Shown: one piece after another, positions 12,907 through 19,937 of the stretch
Layout: every line of letters starts with the position of its first letter
Numbering within the stretch: the stretch's first letter is position 1
Assembly (NCBI RefSeq): GCF_022227845.1
Contig: NZ_JAJNQN010000008.1
Coordinates: 1-64,000 of the forward strand
Source of the DNA: Ectothiorhodospira lacustris
GTDB lineage: Bacteria; Pseudomonadota; Gammaproteobacteria; Ectothiorhodospirales; Ectothiorhodospiraceae
Length of the DNA: 64,000 nt
Direction: 5' to 3'
Translations under genes and position numbers: made by a program
The notes under the pieces: generated by a model
What the model was told of the DNA's origin: nothing
Seen by the model: the letters and a program-made list of their open reading frames with translations, nothing else
Database searches by the model: none

Positions 12907-13599
12907 TCAGAGGGTCCGGCGCCCGGGTTTTTCCGCCACTCGGTTGCGCAGGTACACCGGCAGCACCGCTTCCGCCGGGACGGCCATGCCTTGGGTAAAA
13001 TCCCGGGCGGCGAGCCGGGCAACCTCGGCGGCGCTGGGCAGGCAGTCCGCCAGCGGCGCCCCGCTCAGGCAGTCCCGGAAGCGGGTGGTCAGCACGTCCC
13101 CATGGGCCGACCAGCCATGCCCCACCCCGAGCCAGCCCTGCCATTCCGGCAAGGGGGCATCGCTCGGGGCGCAGACCTGCTCTTCTCCTGCAGGGATGGC
13201 CAGGCCATCCTCATCCCCCCGGAAGGCACCCCAGTAGACTTCCCCCATGCGGGCATCCAGGGCGGCCAGGACCTGATTCGCCCCTTCATCCAGGCCCTGC
13301 TGAGCCAGGGCCGCCAGGGTGGAGACGGGCACCACCGGCAGATCGGCGGCAAAGGCGGCCCCCTGGATTACCCCGGTGGCGATCCTGACGCCGGTGAAGG
13401 CTCCCGGCCCCCGCCCGAAGGCCAGGGCATCGAGCTGCCCCAGGGATAATCCGGCCTCCGCCAGCAGTCCTTCCATCATGGGCAGGATCAGGCGGGCATG
13501 GGCGCGGGGTTCCACCTCGAAGCGGACCCAGACATCCCGGTCCAGGAGCAGGGCGGCGGAACAGGCCTCGGTGGCGGTTTCAATGGCCAGCAATTTCAT
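12907..13599 (-). CDS. tsaB: tRNA threonylcarbamoyladenosine biosynthesis protein TsaB
   Basis: This 230-residue ASKHA-fold protein is the TsaD partner in forming t6A37 on ANN-decoding tRNAs. The N-terminal MKLLAIETATEACSAALL is the phosphate-binding strand, and GRGPGAFTGVRIATGVIQG (about residues 65-85) is the family signature. The frame is open far upstream, but homology begins exactly at the Met codons near 13599-13602. The region upstream (13600-13831) separates it from the divergent kaiC-like gene. Confidence 0.94.
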   Translation of the reverse strand: MKLLAIETATEACSAALLLDRDVWVRFEVEPRAHARLILPMMEGLLAEAGLSLGQLDALAFGRGPGAFTGVRIATGVIQGAAFAADLPVVPVSTLAALAQQGLDEGANQVLAALDARMGEVYWGAFRGDEDGLAIPAGEEQVCAPSDAPLPEWQGWLGVGHGWSAHGDVLTTRFRDCLSGAPLADCLPSAAEVARLAARDFTQGMAVPAEAVLPVYLRNRVAEKPGRRTL

Positions 13600-13773
13600 C
13601 ATTTTGCGCGGGTTTTCAGGGGGCTTGGTAGTGAATATGGAGCGTGATCTGGTTCTGCTTTCGCATGCCGGGCACCGTAACCGCCCCGATGTGCGTTTGT
13701 CCAGCCGGAGATTGATGGGGGTTTTCGACTGGCAGGGGCAGAATTTCGCACTCGGTGGCCTACCGCACATACG

Positions 13774-13784
13774 ATGCAGTGCAT
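13774..13784. promoter_or_regulatory. Short palindrome in the tsaB-kaiC intergenic region
   Basis: ATGCA-G-TGCAT is a perfect 11-base palindrome about 48 bases upstream of the kaiC-like start. It could be an operator, but nothing else supports it. The remaining 230 bases of this gap show no clear gene or promoter. Confidence 0.2.
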
Positions 13785-13831
13785 AGCGGGGATCATCCGG
13801 GGATGGATGCACCTGGGGAGGATACAGCCAC

Positions 13832-15592
13832 TTGAACGCCTCCCACCCATCAAATACCGACAACGCCGTTCCCGGGGCGCCCGAAAAGGCGCCGACCGGC
13901 ATCGCCGGCTTCGACCACATCACCGGGGGCGGGCTGCCTCGCGGGCGCACCACGCTGCTCCTGGGCGGGCCCGGCTCGGGCAAGACCGTCTTTGCGCTGG
14001 AATTCCTGGTGCACGGCGCGCGCAGCTTCGAGGAACCGGGCATCTTTGTCGCCTTCGAAGAGCGCTCGACGCGTATCCTCGCAAACGCCCATAGCTTCGG
14101 CTGGAACCTCCCTGAGCTGCAGCGCGAAAGGCTCTCGTTCGTCGACGCGCAGCCCGTGTCCGATCTGGTGCAGTCGGGTAGCTTCGATCTCAACGGCATG
14201 CTGGCCGCGTTGCAGGCGATGATCGAGTCGACTGGCGCGCGGCGCATCGTCTTTGACGCCCTCGATATCGTGCTCGCGCTGCTCGCCGACCCCGCCGCCA
14301 GACGCGCAGAAACCTATCGCCTGCATGGCTGGCTGCTGGCGCACGAGCTGACCGCAGTCATCACCGCCAAGGCCTTTGGTGACGATGTTTTCCTTATGGG
14401 CCAGGAGTCCTTCGGCTTCATGCAGTTCATGGTGGACTGCGCGGTCATCCTCAACCACAAGGTGGTGCTGGGCGTATCTCAGCGCAACCTGAGGGTTCAG
14501 AAGTACCGCGGTACCAACTTCGACGAGAACGAGTTGCCGTTCCTCATCGGCAAAGACGGGTTCGAGGTCTCGGTGGCACACCCGCTGGAGCGCGGCTCAC
14601 TCACGGTGAGCAAAGAGCGCGTTTCGAGCGGCCTTGAGCGGCTCGATACCATGCTCGGCGGCGGCTACTACCGCGGTGTGAGTGCGCTGATTACGGGCTC
14701 TCCGGGTACGGCCAAGACCACGCTGGTTGGCCTCTTCGCGCAAGCCGCATGCCAGCGCGGCGAACGCACCCTGTTCGTGAGCTTCAGTTCCGACCCCAAC
14801 GAGGTCATCCGCGACCTCGCGTCAGTGGGGATTCGTCTGGCGCGTTACGTCAAGAACGGGCACCTGCGCATGGTCTCCGCGCGCGCCATATCCGGAAGTG
14901 CGGAGCTCTACCTGGCGCACATCATGTCCCTGGCGAAGGAGCACAAGGCCCGATGCCTGGTGATTGACCCGGTGTCAACCTGGTCGTCACAGTCCGGCAC
15001 CCACCTGAGCGCACACAGAATCTCGGAGCGGCTCATCAACTGGTCGAAGGTCGAGGGCATCACGCTGTTGTGCAGCTGCCTGGTCGATGAGCGGACCGTT
15101 CCATCGGAAGACAGCACGTTCCGCCAGATCTCCACGCTTGCCGATACCTGGATCCACTTGAGCTACCTGGTGCAGTCGGGGGAGCGCAACCGTGCCCTTT
15201 CGATCATCAAGTCGCGCGGCACGGCGCACTCGAACCAGGTGCGCGAACTGATCCTCAGCAACAAGGGCGTGACCCTTGCCGATACCTACAGCGCAGGCGG
15301 TGAGGTACTTATGGGCACCTTGCGCTGGCAGAAGGAAGGCGCAGAGCGTGCAGCCGCCGAGACGGCCGAGGTCGCCAGAAAGGTCAAGCGCGTGAGGCTT
15401 GACGCCGAGGAGGCGGAACTTGAGGTGCGGCTGCGGGCGCTGGGCGTGGAGCTCAAGGCGAAGAAGACCGAGAAGGCGCTGCTCATGCGCGCCACCGCCA
15501 CGCGCCGGGGCGAAACCTCGCGCAAGCGCACGCGCATGGAAGTGCTGCGCGGCGCCGATGTCGCGGAAGACAAAGACGGGGATAGACAGTGA
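13832..15592 (+). CDS. kaiC: KaiC-like double-domain ATPase (CII catalytic Glu pair lost)
   Basis: This is a 586-residue protein with two RecA/KaiC domains. CI has Walker A GGPGSGKT (45-52) and the intact catalytic pair Glu76-Glu77 (VAFEER). CII has Walker A GSPGTAKT (289-296), but the position of the Glu-Glu pair reads SFSSDPNE (317-324), without the paired acids. The CII phosphorylation region is recognisable: Thr429, Ser434 and Thr435 (QISTLADTW) align with Synechococcus T426/S431/T432. A Lys/Glu/Arg-rich C-terminal helix (about 500-575) replaces the usual A-loop tail. Translation starts at TTG after GGGGAGG (13814-13820). It is coupled by 4 bases to kaiB. The codon pattern (many GCGC and GAGC runs) differs visibly from adjacent genes, suggesting transfer. 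I predict ATPase activity in CI and weak or no CII autokinase. Confidence 0.88.
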   Translation: MNASHPSNTDNAVPGAPEKAPTGIAGFDHITGGGLPRGRTTLLLGGPGSGKTVFALEFLVHGARSFEEPGIFVAFEERSTRILANAHSFGWNLPELQRERLSFVDAQPVSDLVQSGSFDLNGMLAALQAMIESTGARRIVFDALDIVLALLADPAARRAETYRLHGWLLAHELTAVITAKAFGDDVFLMGQESFGFMQFMVDCAVILNHKVVLGVSQRNLRVQKYRGTNFDENELPFLIGKDGFEVSVAHPLERGSLTVSKERVSSGLERLDTMLGGGYYRGVSALITGSPGTAKTTLVGLFAQAACQRGERTLFVSFSSDPNEVIRDLASVGIRLARYVKNGHLRMVSARAISGSAELYLAHIMSLAKEHKARCLVIDPVSTWSSQSGTHLSAHRISERLINWSKVEGITLLCSCLVDERTVPSEDSTFRQISTLADTWIHLSYLVQSGERNRALSIIKSRGTAHSNQVRELILSNKGVTLADTYSAGGEVLMGTLRWQKEGAERAAAETAEVARKVKRVRLDAEEAELEVRLRALGVELKAKKTEKALLMRATATRRGETSRKRTRMEVLRGADVAEDKDGDRQ

Positions 15593-15885
15593 TGACTGGG
15601 TGCGAGAAGTTCAGCTTCCGGCTCTATGTGGCCGGCGACGCGTGGAACTCGGCCCAGGCGGTGTCCAACCTTGGCGCGGTGTGCCGGGAGCACCTGGCAG
15701 GTCGTCATACGATCGAGGTGGTGGACGTGTTCCGCGAGCCACAGCGCGCGCTTGCCGATGGCATCTTCATGACGCCGACACTGATCAAGCTCGCACCTCT
15801 CCCCGCCCCCGTGCAGGTGGTGGGCTCCCTCAGCCAGAGGTTGCCACTGATGCAGGCCTTGGGACTGCAGGGCGTGCCGGAATGA
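15589..15885 (+). CDS. kaiB: KaiB-like thioredoxin-fold clock protein
   Basis: This 98-residue protein aligns along its length with KaiB: FRLYVAGDAWNSAQAVSNL at the N-terminus, EVVDVFREPQRALADGIFMTPTLIKL in the middle and VVGSLSQR near the end. It keeps the cis-Pro-type TPTL strand that takes part in KaiB fold switching. In cyanobacteria KaiB binds the KaiC CI ring. The start is GTG, immediately followed by ATG, overlapping the kaiC stop; its stop overlaps the start of the EAL gene. No kaiA is present, as is usual outside cyanobacteria. Confidence 0.9.
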   Translation: MMTGCEKFSFRLYVAGDAWNSAQAVSNLGAVCREHLAGRHTIEVVDVFREPQRALADGIFMTPTLIKLAPLPAPVQVVGSLSQRLPLMQALGLQGVPE

Positions 15886-18671
15886 AGCCGTCTCCCACAG
15901 AGGGCGAGCAAGAGGAGATTTCCGCGCTGATCGCCACACTGCACGAGACCGGGCAACGCCTGGAGCTGCTCACCGCGGGCGAAGTGGACTCGGTGAGCGA
16001 CGCCGAGGGCAGGCCCTTCCTGCTACTGAGCGCCCAGGAGCGGCTGCGCCATATCGAGGCCACGAAGCAGGCTGCCGTGCTCAACGCCCTTCCCGCACAT
16101 ATTGTCCTGCTCGACGCCCAGGGTGTCATCGTCTCCGTGAACGAAGCGTGGCGGCATTTCGGCGATGCCAATGCTGCACAGTGCCCGGGTTATGGCGTCG
16201 GCGTCGACTACCTCCGGGTCTGCGACCAGGCGCAAGGAGAAGGCTCCGCCGAGGCGAGCCAGGCCGCCGCCGGCATCCGCGCGGTGCTCGCGGGCAAGAC
16301 GAAGCGCTTCTCGCTCGAGTATCCCTGCCACTCACCGACCGAGAAGCGCTGGTTCCTGATGAGCGCGACCCCGCTCACTGAGGACGGCGGGAACGGTGCT
16401 ATCGTCATGCACATCGATATCTCGGAGAGAAGGCAGGCCGAAGAGGACCTGCGCGTGAGCGAGACGCGCTTGCGCGAGATGGCCGAGAGCATCCGCGACG
16501 TCTTCTTCCTGCGCGACAAGGTGGGCGGGATGTTGTATGTGAGTCCGGCCTACGCGGAGATCTGGGGCCGCAGCTGCGAGAGCCTGTACGTCGACCCGGA
16601 CTCGTGGCGCGATGCGATCCACCCCGATGACCGTGCGGCGACGCTGAAGAAAATGCGCAGTGAGCTGATGGAGGGCAAGATAGAGATCGAATACCGCATC
16701 GTGCGCCCCGACGGCTCGGTCCGCTGGATCGAATCCCGCGGCTTCCCGGTGCGCGATACCGCCGGCACCATCGTGCGTCTCGCCGGGGTCTCCACCGACA
16801 TCACCGTGCGCAAGCGCGCCGAGCTCAGCATCCAGCGCCTGAACCGGGTGAACGCGATGCTGAGCCGGATCAACGGCCTGATCGTGCGCGTGCGCACCCG
16901 CGACGAGTTGTTCGAGGAAGCCTGCCGCATCGCCGTCGAGGCCGGTGGTTTCCGCATGGCGTGGATTGGCCTCACCGACCCCACTTCGATGAAGCTCGTG
17001 CCGGCCGCCTCGGCAGGTACCGATGATATTCTCGCCGATGCGAAATCCTGCATGATGCTTCAGGACGACGCGCCAGGCGGGTACGGCCCCTCCGCGATGG
17101 CGGTGCGCGAACGTAAGGCGATCCTGGTCAACGATGTCGCAAGCGACGTGCGGATCCTGGATAAGGGCGCTCACCTGCAGCGGGGGATCCACTCGCTCGC
17201 CAGCCTGCCGTTGATGATCAACGATGAGGTGATAGGCGTGTTCGGCCTGCAAGCGCCGGACACCGGTTTCTTCGACGAGGCGGAGGTGAAACTTCTGCAT
17301 CAGCTGGCCGAAGACATCGCATTCGCCATCGATCATATCGACAAGCAGGACCGGCTCGACTACCTCGCCTACTACGATGCGCTCACCGGGCTGGCGAACC
17401 GCAGCCTTTTCATCGAGCGCGTGTCGCAGTACATGAAGACCGCCGCCGCCGCCGGGCATTCGCTCGCCCTCTTTCTGGTGGACCTGGAGCGGTTCAAATA
17501 TTTCAATGACAGCCTCGGCCGCCCGGCGGGTGACGCCTTACTGCGACACGTGGCCCAGTGGCTCACACAAAGCATCGGGGACGCCAGCCTGCTCGCACGG
17601 ATTGGTGCAGACCAGTTCGCGGTGGTGCTGCCCGAAGTCCGCAATGAAGGGGACGTGGCGCGGCTGCTGGAGAAGTTGATGGCAGTCTTTCAAGATCGAT
17701 CGTTCAACCTGGAGGACGACACCTATCGCGTGGCCGCGAGAACCGGCGTGGCGCTATTTCCCCAGGACGGCAAGGAAGCCGAGGCCCTGTTCCTGAACGC
17801 CGAGGCGGCGCTGAAGAATGCCAAGACCCGCGGCGACCGCTACCTCTTCTATTCGCACAAGATGACCAAGGCCATGGCCGGCAAGTTGATTCTGGAGAAC
17901 CAGCTGCGCCAGGCGATCGACCGAGAGGAGTTCGTGCTGCACTACCAGCCCAAGGTGAGCTTCGCGAGCGGCAAGCTCACCAGCGCCGAGGCGCTGATCC
18001 GCTGGAACGATCCGCGCACCGGGCAGGTGCCGCCGGGTCAGTTCATCCCGGTGCTGGAGGAAACCGGGATGATCTACGAGGCGGGTCGCTGGGCACTGCG
18101 CAAGGCGATCGCGAACTACCTGCGCTGGCTGGACACGGGGCTGCCTGCGGTGCGTGTTGCGGTCAACGTATCGGCCCTGCAGCTGCGCAGCCCCGGCTTC
18201 ATCGCCGAACTGGAGCAGGCCCTTGCCGTCGATACGCGCGCCGCGGCGGGCCTGGAGCTTGAGATCACCGAGAGCCTCATCATGGCGGACGTGGAGCACA
18301 GCATCGCCACGCTGCAGGCGGTGCGCGCCATGGGCGTCACTGTCGCGATCGACGATTTCGGCACCGGCTTCTCTTCACTCAGTTATCTGATGAAGCTGCC
18401 CGTGGACACGCTGAAGATCGACCGCTCCTTCGTGTTGGCGATGACGCAGTCCCCTCAAGGGTTGGCCCTGGTCACGACCATCATCAATCTGACGCATTCG
18501 CTCAAGCTCAATGCGGTGGCGGAGGGCGTGGAGACGCAGGAGCAGTCGCGCCTGCTGCGTCTGATGGGCTGCGACGAGATGCAGGGCTACCTCGTCAGTA
18601 AGCCGCTGCCTGTCGAGATATTCGAAACGCGCTTCCTGGCGCGGGTCAGCTCCGAGCAAAGGCAGCGTTAG
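15882..18671 (+). CDS. PAS-PAS-GAF-GGDEF(degenerate)-EAL c-di-GMP phosphodiesterase
   Basis: This is a 929-residue soluble sensor protein. A PAS-like domain (about 55-180, start of HIVLLDAQGVIVSVNEAW), a PAS/PAC domain (about 185-315), a GAF domain (about 330-480), a GGDEF domain and an EAL domain follow in order. The cyclase signature is GADQF (575-579), so synthesis is probably lost, although it may bind GTP. The EAL domain keeps its metal/catalytic set: Glu703 of EAL, NVSALQL, EITES, DDFGTGFSS, KIDRSF and EGVE. It should hydrolyse c-di-GMP to pGpG. The ATG at 15882 overlaps the kaiB stop (ATGA) and begins at the first residues not belonging to KaiC/KaiB frames. No transmembrane segments are seen. 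Its stop overlaps that of the convergent LOV gene. Confidence 0.9.
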   Translation: MKPSPTEGEQEEISALIATLHETGQRLELLTAGEVDSVSDAEGRPFLLLSAQERLRHIEATKQAAVLNALPAHIVLLDAQGVIVSVNEAWRHFGDANAAQCPGYGVGVDYLRVCDQAQGEGSAEASQAAAGIRAVLAGKTKRFSLEYPCHSPTEKRWFLMSATPLTEDGGNGAIVMHIDISERRQAEEDLRVSETRLREMAESIRDVFFLRDKVGGMLYVSPAYAEIWGRSCESLYVDPDSWRDAIHPDDRAATLKKMRSELMEGKIEIEYRIVRPDGSVRWIESRGFPVRDTAGTIVRLAGVSTDITVRKRAELSIQRLNRVNAMLSRINGLIVRVRTRDELFEEACRIAVEAGGFRMAWIGLTDPTSMKLVPAASAGTDDILADAKSCMMLQDDAPGGYGPSAMAVRERKAILVNDVASDVRILDKGAHLQRGIHSLASLPLMINDEVIGVFGLQAPDTGFFDEAEVKLLHQLAEDIAFAIDHIDKQDRLDYLAYYDALTGLANRSLFIERVSQYMKTAAAAGHSLALFLVDLERFKYFNDSLGRPAGDALLRHVAQWLTQSIGDASLLARIGADQFAVVLPEVRNEGDVARLLEKLMAVFQDRSFNLEDDTYRVAARTGVALFPQDGKEAEALFLNAEAALKNAKTRGDRYLFYSHKMTKAMAGKLILENQLRQAIDREEFVLHYQPKVSFASGKLTSAEALIRWNDPRTGQVPPGQFIPVLEETGMIYEAGRWALRKAIANYLRWLDTGLPAVRVAVNVSALQLRSPGFIAELEQALAVDTRAAAGLELEITESLIMADVEHSIATLQAVRAMGVTVAIDDFGTGFSSLSYLMKLPVDTLKIDRSFVLAMTQSPQGLALVTTIINLTHSLKLNAVAEGVETQEQSRLLRLMGCDEMQGYLVSKPLPVEIFETRFLARVSSEQRQR

Positions 18672-19141
18672 CCCGTGCCGTCCTGACGGGGTATTGGGGA
18701 GAGGGCGCCGAGGCGGCTCAGCTCCCGCTGGGCGGCCTCCAGGGCCTGCTCGGCTTCCACTTGCGTGGTGATGTCCTTCTGGATGCCGATGTAGTAAGTC
18801 AGCCGGTCCTCGTCATTGAACACCGGCGTGATGCTCAGTTCGTTCCAGAACAGGCTGCCGTCCTTGCGGTAGTTGCGCAGCCGCACCCGGCAGGGCATGC
18901 CCCGCTCCATGGCCTCCCGTATTTGCACCAGGCCGGGTTGGTCGCGATCATCGTTCTGCAGGAAGCGACAGTCCCGGTACAGGATTTCATCGGCACGATA
19001 ACCCGTCAGCCGTTCAAAGCCTGCGTTCACATAGATGAGTATGGTGTCATCGCCTTCCCGCTCGGCGATGGTCACGCCGTCATCGGAGGCGTCCACCGCC
19101 AGGGCCAGTAAGGCAGGATCAATCAGACGCTCACGTACCAT
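18668..19141 (-). CDS. Short LOV blue-light photoreceptor (PpSB1-LOV type)
   Basis: This 157-residue protein is a single LOV (PAS) domain with short flanking helices. The flavin-adduct motif DCRFLQ places the photoactive Cys at residue 58. The downstream LOV signatures NYRKDGSLFWNELSITPV and YYIGIQKDIT are intact, including the Gln that senses the flavin. It closely resembles, from memory, the Pseudomonas putida short LOV protein PpSB1-LOV, including EGDDTILIYVNA and DEILY-x-DCRFLQ. The usual Asn of GxNCRFLQ is Asp, as in that protein. Having no output domain, it must act by dimer rearrangement or partner binding. It lies 1 base after the FNR-like gene on the same strand and shares stop bases with the EAL gene. 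Confidence 0.92.
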   Translation of the reverse strand: MVRERLIDPALLALAVDASDDGVTIAEREGDDTILIYVNAGFERLTGYRADEILYRDCRFLQNDDRDQPGLVQIREAMERGMPCRVRLRNYRKDGSLFWNELSITPVFNDEDRLTYYIGIQKDITTQVEAEQALEAAQRELSRLGALSPIPRQDGTG

Positions 19142-19142
19142 A

Positions 19143-19937
19143 TCAGATCCCGGGGACGGATTCCGAGCCGCTCAGGCTTTCCAGGGCTTCCAGGTCATGG
19201 AGATAGATGATGCCGGCCTTCTCCGACAGATAACCCCGCCGTTTCCAGTCGGCAAAGAAGCGGCTGACCGTCTCCACGGTCAGGCCCAGCAGTGCGCCGG
19301 TCTCGGTGCGGGACAGGGGTAGCGGCATGCTGGGGTAGTGGCCGTTCTTGGCCCGCCAGTAGAGCAGGAAGGCAGCAAGCCGTTCACCGGCCTTTTTGGT
19401 ACCCAGTTCCAGGGCCAGGTTTTCCACCTGCTGCAGGGCCAGGGCCCAGCGGGCCAGCAGGGCATGGTTCAGGGTGGGGTGCTCCGCCTGCAGTCGTTTG
19501 AGCACCGGCAACGGCAGCCGGCAGATCTGGACCGGAGTCAGGGTGGTGGCCGTGTGGTTGTAGGCATGCCCCATCAGTCCTTCCGCCCCCATGACATCCC
19601 CCCGGGTCAGCAGGCGCAGGATCTGGTCGCGACCGTTCACGGCGGTACGCGTCAGTTTGATCACTCCGTCCTTGAGGGTGAACGCCGCATTGGCCTCGGC
19701 GCCTTCCCGGTAGAGGACATGGCCTGCAGGAAGATCAAGGTGTTCCGCCGGGTTGTTGAGCCTGAGCACCACCTCGTCCGGCAGATCGCCGAACAGGCTG
19801 ACGTCCCTGACCGGGCAGCGACCGCAGTCGTTATCCATCTGCGGCGTGACGGCCCGGCCCGGCTGGATATTTTTATCGCGCCGCCGGCGGCCGGCCGGGT
19901 CGCCATCGCCCAAGGCGAGATCACATGGGTTGGACAA
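19143..19937 (-). CDS. FNR/Crp-family transcription regulator with partial Cys set
   Basis: This 264-residue regulator has an N-terminal extension, a cyclic-nucleotide-type beta-roll (about 50-160), a dimer helix and a C-terminal winged helix. The recognition helix reads TVETVSRFF, which keeps the Glu-x-x-Ser-Arg that reads TTGAT half-sites. N-terminal cysteines are Cys5 and the CGRC pair (about 38-41), and another Cys sits in QICRLPL where FNR has Cys122. The third N-terminal ligand of E. coli FNR (C-x2-C-x5-C) is Ser here, so a standard [4Fe-4S] site is uncertain. The TTG start at 19937 follows AGGGGGAG by 9 bases; Met at 19838 is an alternative. Confidence 0.87.
   Translation of the reverse strand: MSNPCDLALGDGDPAGRRRRDKNIQPGRAVTPQMDNDCGRCPVRDVSLFGDLPDEVVLRLNNPAEHLDLPAGHVLYREGAEANAAFTLKDGVIKLTRTAVNGRDQILRLLTRGDVMGAEGLMGHAYNHTATTLTPVQICRLPLPVLKRLQAEHPTLNHALLARWALALQQVENLALELGTKKAGERLAAFLLYWRAKNGHYPSMPLPLSRTETGALLGLTVETVSRFFADWKRRGYLSEKAGIIYLHDLEALESLSGSESVPGI

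Follow-up and report, generated by a model that had tools for sequence, protein, structure and literature searches.

The stretch of the Ectothiorhodospira lacustris genome analyzed here (assembly GCF_022227845.1, contig NZ_JAJNQN010000008.1, positions 1 to 64,000 of the forward strand; 64,000 nucleotides, referred to below as the window) harbors a cassette of three genes, kaiC, kaiB, and a gene specifying a PAS-PAS-GAF-GGDEF-EAL protein. Comparison with related loci delimits, at the start of this third protein, a module of approximately 53 residues (residues 11 to 63, ahead of the first PAS domain) which is strongly linked to kaiB and which is retained in front of different output domains. This KaiB-linked, output-swapping module, presumed to act as a connector, looks to be the new element of the system.

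It is proposed that kaiC-kaiB-EAL represents a self-contained signaling cassette in which KaiC, whose CI catalytic glutamate pair is kept, would form an ATP-driven ring to which KaiB would bind. The third protein would then dock on the KaiB-KaiC assembly via its N-terminal 53-residue module, and the state of the ring would alter EAL phosphodiesterase activity and, hence, cyclic di-GMP (c-di-GMP) levels, while in other bacteria the same KaiC-KaiB-module core is joined to other outputs, namely, histidine kinases or a DNA-binding protein of the Crp type. The binding of the module and the direction in which it works, the consequence for c-di-GMP, and the type of timing involved are what we infer from the sequence comparisons, and the explanation as a whole, from cassette through module docking to EAL control, is held with middling confidence.

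Conservation of the cassette and of the N-terminal module

The products of kaiC, kaiB, and the third gene each score above the Pfam cut-offs, and since these three genes and the adjoining LOV gene are all clear family members, the locus is not a chance reading. The junctions, as read from the sequence, support the operon with short overlaps described in the initial annotation: kaiC and kaiB have GTGA in common with a kaiB start at GTG 15589 and a single base with a start at ATG 15592, and ATGA at 15882 to 15885 is common to kaiB and the EAL gene. The start of kaiC was called at a TTG codon, and the real start is possibly slightly downstream.

For the comparison of gene order, one KaiC scan of named genomes yielded 136 stretches and 94 relatives, of which 80 loci were kept. 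A kaiB gene follows kaiC in 76 of these and a third gene is present in 75, the remainder ending at contig ends; the anticipated conservation of the kaiC-kaiB-EAL linkage in relatives was, therefore, borne out, and the three genes represent, on this comparative basis, a real and conserved unit. When residues 1 to 190 of the third protein of the window served as a BLAST query, 67 of the 75 third genes matched, among which 41 gave an EAL match, 15 specified another output, and 11 were cut off. Fourteen of the 15 third proteins with another output were scanned against Pfam, and a kinase ATPase domain was present in all 14 (L028 combining kinase and EAL). Among the seven third proteins which BLAST missed but the module profile described below recognizes, the three that were scanned (L076, L078, and L079) contain a Crp-type helix-turn-helix (HTH) by Pfam, and the other four resemble these.

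A profile of the module, designated A1, was built from 30 rows, namely, the window and 29 sequences from kai loci, and recognized the module in all but one of the 75 third genes, at their very start; of the 74 loci concerned, 45 are outside the profile's training set. An AlphaFold2 model (35 rows; mean predicted local distance difference test [pLDDT] score, 87.5) places a helix at residues 7 to 30, a beta-hairpin at 37 to 39 and 45 to 47, and a second helix at 49 to 69, after which the PAS fold begins. The module corresponds to no known domain in Pfam, which returned only chance-level names (E values of 0.1 or worse), or in NCBIfam, which returned no match, and no KaiB match was found by Pfam in the window third protein, i.e., a KaiB-like N-terminal domain of the SasA type was not encountered. 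A structure search with a model of the module plus PAS was uninformative regarding the module, as the best 50 of its 1,016 matches were mainly PAS-domain proteins. Keyword searches of the open-access literature, a scope outside which most subscription papers and supplements fall and in which a sequence motif is not searchable by keyword, found no account of the module.

Linkage of the module to kaiB

The distribution of the module was surveyed by scoring, for each genome, no more than 28 to 35 candidates from a first look. Among 232 genomes drawn evenly from the class to which the window belongs, A1 matched in eight, in seven of which a same-strand KaiB precedes the match, which is located 50 to 265 bp 3' of it. 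Two genomes among 190 of Fodinicurvata's class matched, as did two among 188 of a Myxococcales bacterium's phylum, all four beside KaiB (identified in the latter phylum by an in-house profile). A second profile, A3, built from four divergent members, matched in 4 of the 232 and 2 of the 190 genomes, in every case beside KaiB, with G075, G144, and G342 being outside its training set. Combining A1 and A3, the module was detected in 15 of 610 genomes, and in 14 of these it is located within approximately 265 bp 3' of a same-strand kaiB. Four of the 15 (G000, G217, G292, and G295) hold A1 training rows; the other 11 were each first detected by a profile to whose training they had not contributed, and in 10 of them the module lies beside kaiB.

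Similar results were obtained for plasmids, where one divergent module sequence matched 13 of 72,556 records, with a KaiB match just upstream in all 13. As nine of these are records of Cereibacter sphaeroides, they represent five lineages; a module match was missing in 3 of 16 plasmid records with KaiB. In 30 kai-bearing genomes for which up to 150 candidates each were scored, the module was present in all, in a total of 36 copies. The idea that the module is a mere common leader of PAS kinases was unsupported, all six A3 matches in the two classes being located at kaiB, though copies elsewhere do exist.

A number of observations weigh against a dedicated role of the module at KaiB. The module is missing from L050, the sole A1 miss among the third genes, where 729 bp remain downstream of kaiB, and the weak match in G060 lies in a 53-codon frame without KaiB. 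Of the 36 copies mentioned above, six exceed one per genome, two being located at a second kaiC-kaiB pair and four (L177, L178, L179, and L180) having no kaiB nearby. The kaiB link is clearly broken by a kinase with a module-like piece on plasmid pOB3b1 of Methylosinus trichosporium OB3b (L193:3434-5725), which was found with the 190-residue query from the window, adjoins a chemotaxis receptor and a response regulator and has no kai genes within 8.6 kb. Only 9 of the 21 class-survey genomes with KaiB over the cut-off contain the module, and no KaiB-module fusion was found among 201 loci. Furthermore, the training rows are kaiB linked and the candidates per genome were limited, such that unlinked relatives may have been missed; A1 covered all three sets of genomes, and A3 covered those of 232 and 190. 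Finally, the module could do no more than cap a dimer in a generic way, and its predicted long helices run straight into the PAS domain.

The predicted helices, together with the copies away from kaiB, speak for the alternative that the module is a structural N-cap or dimerization element, with KaiB/KaiC and the third protein being co-expressed and acting through PAS/GAF ligands or transcription rather than through docking. This alternative is considered somewhat unlikely for the following reasons: the same PAS domain is also met with no module ahead of it, as in 9 of the best 20 of 49 plasmid matches, which start only at residue 64 to 66; the module is retained where the part that follows it becomes another PAS domain or a Crp-like protein; and 14 of the 15 survey genomes carry the module by kaiB. 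The module is, based on these surveys, strongly yet not exclusively linked to kaiB, and the copies located away from kaiB could serve as outputs in trans.

Exchange of outputs

A KaiC tree was constructed from 73 rows, 63 of which were labeled by output (EAL, 37; histidine kinase [HK], 17; HTH, 7; HK plus EAL, 2). Labels were derived from EAL matches and Pfam, with the exception of L033, L042, L054, and L068 (HK) and L052 (HK plus EAL), which were assigned by kinase motifs, and four HTH rows, which were assigned by likeness. L038, L048, L051, L063, L065, L067, and L071 were left out because of a broken or partial KaiC or because no third gene was seen, and L087 and L088, which gave partial matches only, are outside the tree set. 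The output labels require nine changes by parsimony, compared with a least possible number of three and a mean of 23.5 in shuffles, and well-supported branches force at least four changes for EAL and four for HK; the number of changes is soft, as the tree comes from a short search that leaves 25 of its 70 inner branches open. On the evidence of this tree, outputs have been repeatedly exchanged while the KaiC-KaiB-module core was kept. The window KaiC groups with those of two metagenome-assembled genomes (MAGs), one of Natronospirales and the other bearing the name Thioalkalivibrio paradoxus (Shimodaira-Hasegawa-like approximate likelihood ratio test, 99).

Proteins combining the module with a Crp-like DNA-binding part follow kaiC-kaiB in L076, L077, L078, L079, L081, L082, and L084, which derive from Competibacteraceae, Rubrivivax, and one unplaced Pseudomonadota MAG. 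These proteins possibly provide a direct Kai-to-promoter output.

KaiC and KaiB of the window

The solved structure nearest to the window KaiC is 8dba. The CI domain retains a Walker A motif (GGPGSGKT) and the catalytic pair EE, which is EE in 77 of 79 aligned KaiC rows and a gap in the other two, and both CI ATPase activity and KaiB binding are plausible for this protein. The glutamate pair of the 8dba CII domain is aligned opposite Ser-Ser of the window KaiC, both CII catalytic glutamates thus being gone. At this position, the 79 rows read DS (60), DE (9), DT (7), DA (1), SS (1), and a gap (1); the window, where the codons of the pair occupy positions 14786 to 14791, is the sole Ser-Ser row, all others with letters starting with Asp. 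The CII phosphosite pair is S-T in the window and, across the 79 rows, ST (58), SA (12), SS (3), SK (2), SE (1), SM (1), FT (1), and a gap (1), the first serine being nearly constant and the second position variable.

In cyanobacterial KaiC, the CII glutamate pair serves autophosphorylation. Because this pair is Ser-Ser in the window KaiC, a phosphorylation clock of the cyanobacterial type is unlikely to operate in this genome, and the loss of the pair favors KaiC more likely being an energy reporter or one-way timer than a self-sustained phosphorylation clock. That a true circadian or hourglass oscillator on KaiC phosphorylation drives the phosphodiesterase in a cyanobacterium-like manner is accordingly judged improbable, even though the Ser-Thr phosphosite pair is kept in the window KaiC and PMC4794148 reports timing that depends on KaiC in Rhodopseudomonas palustris: most relatives carry Asp-Ser, Asp-Thr, or Asp-Glu rather than Glu-Glu at the CII pair, and the second phosphosite varies as detailed above.

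The window KaiB is divergent, scoring 59.3 bits against PF07689 (cut-off, 27) and falling under the NCBIfam cut-offs (54.1 versus 110 and 51.6 versus 145.3). The same genome harbors a second kaiC-kaiB pair at the end of contig C2 (G000:C2:42-1963, L161), in which the CII pair is EE, and a like pair is present in G003 of the same genus (L163). A third kaiB (G000:C12:318498-318731; L162:4472-4753, minus strand) has no kaiC nearby and shows a 4-base overlap with a PAS-kinase-receiver gene. The arrangement kaiC-kaiB-kaiB, followed by a module-bearing protein, was observed in L174/L167 (G055), L181 (G287), L191 (G368), L201 (G342), and L203 (a Pararhizobium plasmid), and two KaiB types within one system may divide labor.

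The EAL output

The EAL signature motifs comprise metal and substrate residues of the EAL fold, and such motifs mark active enzymes. In the window protein these motifs are intact (AEALIRWND, VNVS, EITESL, IDDFGTG, LKIDRSF, and AEGVET), and they are kept in most of 39 aligned EAL rows. The GGDEF motif is degenerate, reading GADQF, such that the GG(D/E)EF active site is not present. The third protein is, on the basis of its sequence, a probable c-di-GMP phosphodiesterase, c-di-GMP breakdown being the likely output because the EAL domain is intact. The degenerate GGDEF half would also suit a LapD-like c-di-GMP receptor without catalysis, a role rendered very improbable by the intact EAL motifs of the window protein and their retention among the aligned rows.

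Origin of the cassette and its LOV neighbor

The initial annotation described a convergent, PpSB1-like short LOV gene sharing stop bases with the EAL gene and combined it with the Kai genes in a light- and time-tuned control of c-di-GMP. The description of the gene itself was confirmed: the EAL stop (18669 to 18671, plus strand) and the LOV stop (18668 to 18670, minus strand) overlap by two bases, and the best PDB match of the LOV protein is 7r5n (3.2e-58), followed by short LOVs of the PpSB2 and PpSB1 types. The 157-residue protein retains the cysteine motif YRDCRFLQ, and its Pfam matches are of the PAS type only, without an effector domain. A Crp/Fnr-family gene, absent from the initial annotation, ends one base ahead of the LOV start on the same strand.

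The LOV neighborhood was surveyed in 58 genomes, i.e., that of the window and 57 relatives. Matches at an identity of at least 68% were found in 25 other genomes, and 13 of the 25 loci, all from the same family, were fetched with 11 to 18 kb each. In all 13, the LOV gene sits with smr, surE, pcm, yqaA, and nlpD, and in nine also near dinG, tsaB, and truD; neither kaiC nor kaiB was present in any of these 13 fetched stretches. The tsaB-LOV gap measures 11 bp in G003 and 66 bp in G002, both of the same genus, versus approximately 5.07 kb with the kai cassette in the window, and the window stretch and these two loci have only short matches of up to 33 bp in common. Conversely, the LOV cysteine motif was found on neither strand of the 80 related kai loci, a scan which reached at least 2 kb beyond the third gene in 53 of 75 loci and at least 2 kb ahead of kaiC in 66 of 80. 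KaiB sites fetched from relatives (two from G003 and one each from G029, G020, and G055) match the window KaiB at 31 to 43%.

Relative to the same-genus empty sites, the approximately 5-kb segment is, by direct comparison, an extra stretch, and the kai-EAL cassette which it carries was probably gained horizontally. No mobile-element signs were seen at its edges, where repeats are short and chance-like only, and the stretch has no Rfam match. Promoter-like sites are at chance level (one versus 0.8 in shuffles), and seven terminator-like sites were counted versus 3.9 ± 2.0. Its G+C content of about 0.63 to 0.66 resembles that of the downstream side and is slightly under that of most of the upstream side.

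Because of the kai-free LOV loci, the empty sites in the same genus, and the absence of the LOV motif from all 80 kai loci, the adjacency of LOV gene and kai cassette is probably an accident, and membership of LOV in the circuit was rejected on the same grounds. Light tuning via LOV was, thus, not borne out, there being no LOV proximity in relatives; of the originally proposed control, the phosphodiesterase output stands, with its intact EAL domain and conserved gene order, while the light part does not, the LOV locus being kai-free in relatives. Within the explanation that we hold with middling confidence overall, the LOV gene is proposed to belong to an older neighboring locus. A single light- and time-tuned c-di-GMP circuit of LOV, KaiB/KaiC, and EAL, to which the direct adjacency with overlapping stops, the intact LOV cysteine, and the intact EAL domain lend some support, is highly improbable in view of the same three lines of evidence, of the convergence of the genes, owing to which LOV and kai genes do not form one transcript, and of the short LOV of Pseudomonas mendocina, which acts on an adjacent regulator according to PMC9758184.

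Two observations count against an unqualified use of the word accident, and in favor of the single circuit: a GGDEF-like match of 38% over 98 residues, thus partial, lies approximately 1 kb from LOV in G012, without kai genes (L152:2065-2361), and in G015 a GGDEF-like match lies approximately 7 kb from LOV.

Crp/Fnr adjoins LOV in G003 and G002, but the 11 remaining loci that were fetched show no such neighbor. Since the Pseudomonas mendocina short LOV acts on its neighboring transcription regulator (PMC9758184), the LOV-Crp/Fnr pair would, by analogy, be the likelier unit in the genus of the window than LOV plus the kai genes. In relatives, a Tll0287-like gene lies between smr and LOV (or Crp/Fnr) (L148:11771-12385, L153, L155, L156, and L158). 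Besides G003, all four loci of other genera that were tested have this gene by LOV, and it is a candidate old partner of LOV.

Comparison with known systems

The initial annotation had regarded the gene set as undescribed. In non-cyanobacterial kaiC-kaiB clusters, however, a histidine kinase or GGDEF/EAL gene is immediately downstream in almost all cases, as already reported in 2011 (PMC3164672). As the kai-EAL order had been described, novelty could hold for the combination with LOV only, and that part fails. The "orange" KaiC context of PMC3164672 has the same gene order and the same type of third gene as the window, directly 3' of kaiB in both. The section text compared mentions for this context neither an N-terminal module common to EAL, kinase, and Crp-type outputs nor an altered CII pair; a supplement legend refers to an unspecified N-terminal region in hybrid kinases.

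A kaiC-B-PAS/HK operon is also reported for Rhodopseudomonas and Rhodobacter in PMC4794148. On plasmid pB of Cereibacter sphaeroides 2.4.1, kaiC, kaiB, and an HWE kinase gene lie in a row, KaiC matching 8dba/8fwi and KaiB 8fwj over nearly their full lengths, with KaiB being identical over 88 residues. This Rhodobacter (Cereibacter) sphaeroides operon has the order of the window, and its kinase opens with a divergent form of the module; the output is a kinase whereas that of the window is an EAL enzyme, and the solved KaiC keeps the CII glutamate pair where the window has Ser-Ser.

SasA of cyanobacteria and RtaNt of Ramlibacter resemble the third protein in that an N-terminal piece of the output protein is the proposed Kai contact. 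Their N termini are KaiB-like (PMC3164672), in contrast to the window module of approximately 53 residues with its predicted helix-hairpin-helix. The window LOV, in turn, is like the PpSB1/PmSB short LOVs of Pseudomonas in sequence, length, cysteine motif, and the presence of a regulator neighbor, which is Crp/Fnr here (in the genus of the window only, 2 of 13 fetched loci) and LitR/MerR beside the Pseudomonas short LOV (PMC9758184).

Features of the locus

Table 1. Coordinates of the kai cassette and its flanking features in the window
Feature	Position	Strand	Basis or remark
kaiC, double-domain KaiC, 586 aa	13832..15592	+	PF06745 in two stretches, 2.4e-88; TTG start
kaiB, 98 aa	15589..15885	+	PF07689, 3.1e-16; solved KaiBs match
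PAS-PAS-GAF-GGDEF-EAL protein, 929 aa	15882..18671	+	Pfam EAL, 4.7e-72; GGDEF, 4.4e-35
KaiB-linked N-terminal module, residues 11-63	15912..16070	+	Alignment A1, KaiB adjacency, predicted fold
EAL domain, residues 673-908	17898..18605	+	PF00563, 4.7e-72
Short LOV photoreceptor, 157 aa	18668..19141	-	Judged to be outside the kai unit
Crp/Fnr-family regulator	19143..19937	-	Pfam cNMP_binding and HTH_Crp_2; directly upstream of LOV
tsaB	12907-13602	-	Left flank of the lineage-specific stretch
Lineage-specific stretch with kaiC-kaiB-EAL	13600..18670	.	Between tsaB and LOV; approximate boundaries

Implications for Kai signaling outside cyanobacteria

The module may be a general KaiB/KaiC output connector outside cyanobacteria, by which a portable sensor or timer would feed into c-di-GMP breakdown, phosphorelays, or the direct control of genes, sometimes in trans, with the cassette moving as a whole; this wider proposal is advanced tentatively, with slightly less confidence than the account of the window cassette itself. 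One short connector common to three output chemistries represents a concrete and cheaply testable claim, and in Rhodobacter sphaeroides the genes for a KaiB and a KaiC whose structures have been solved lie next to that of a kinase carrying the module. If the proposal is true, an ATP-driven Kai ring would be tied directly to the control of lifestyle by c-di-GMP.

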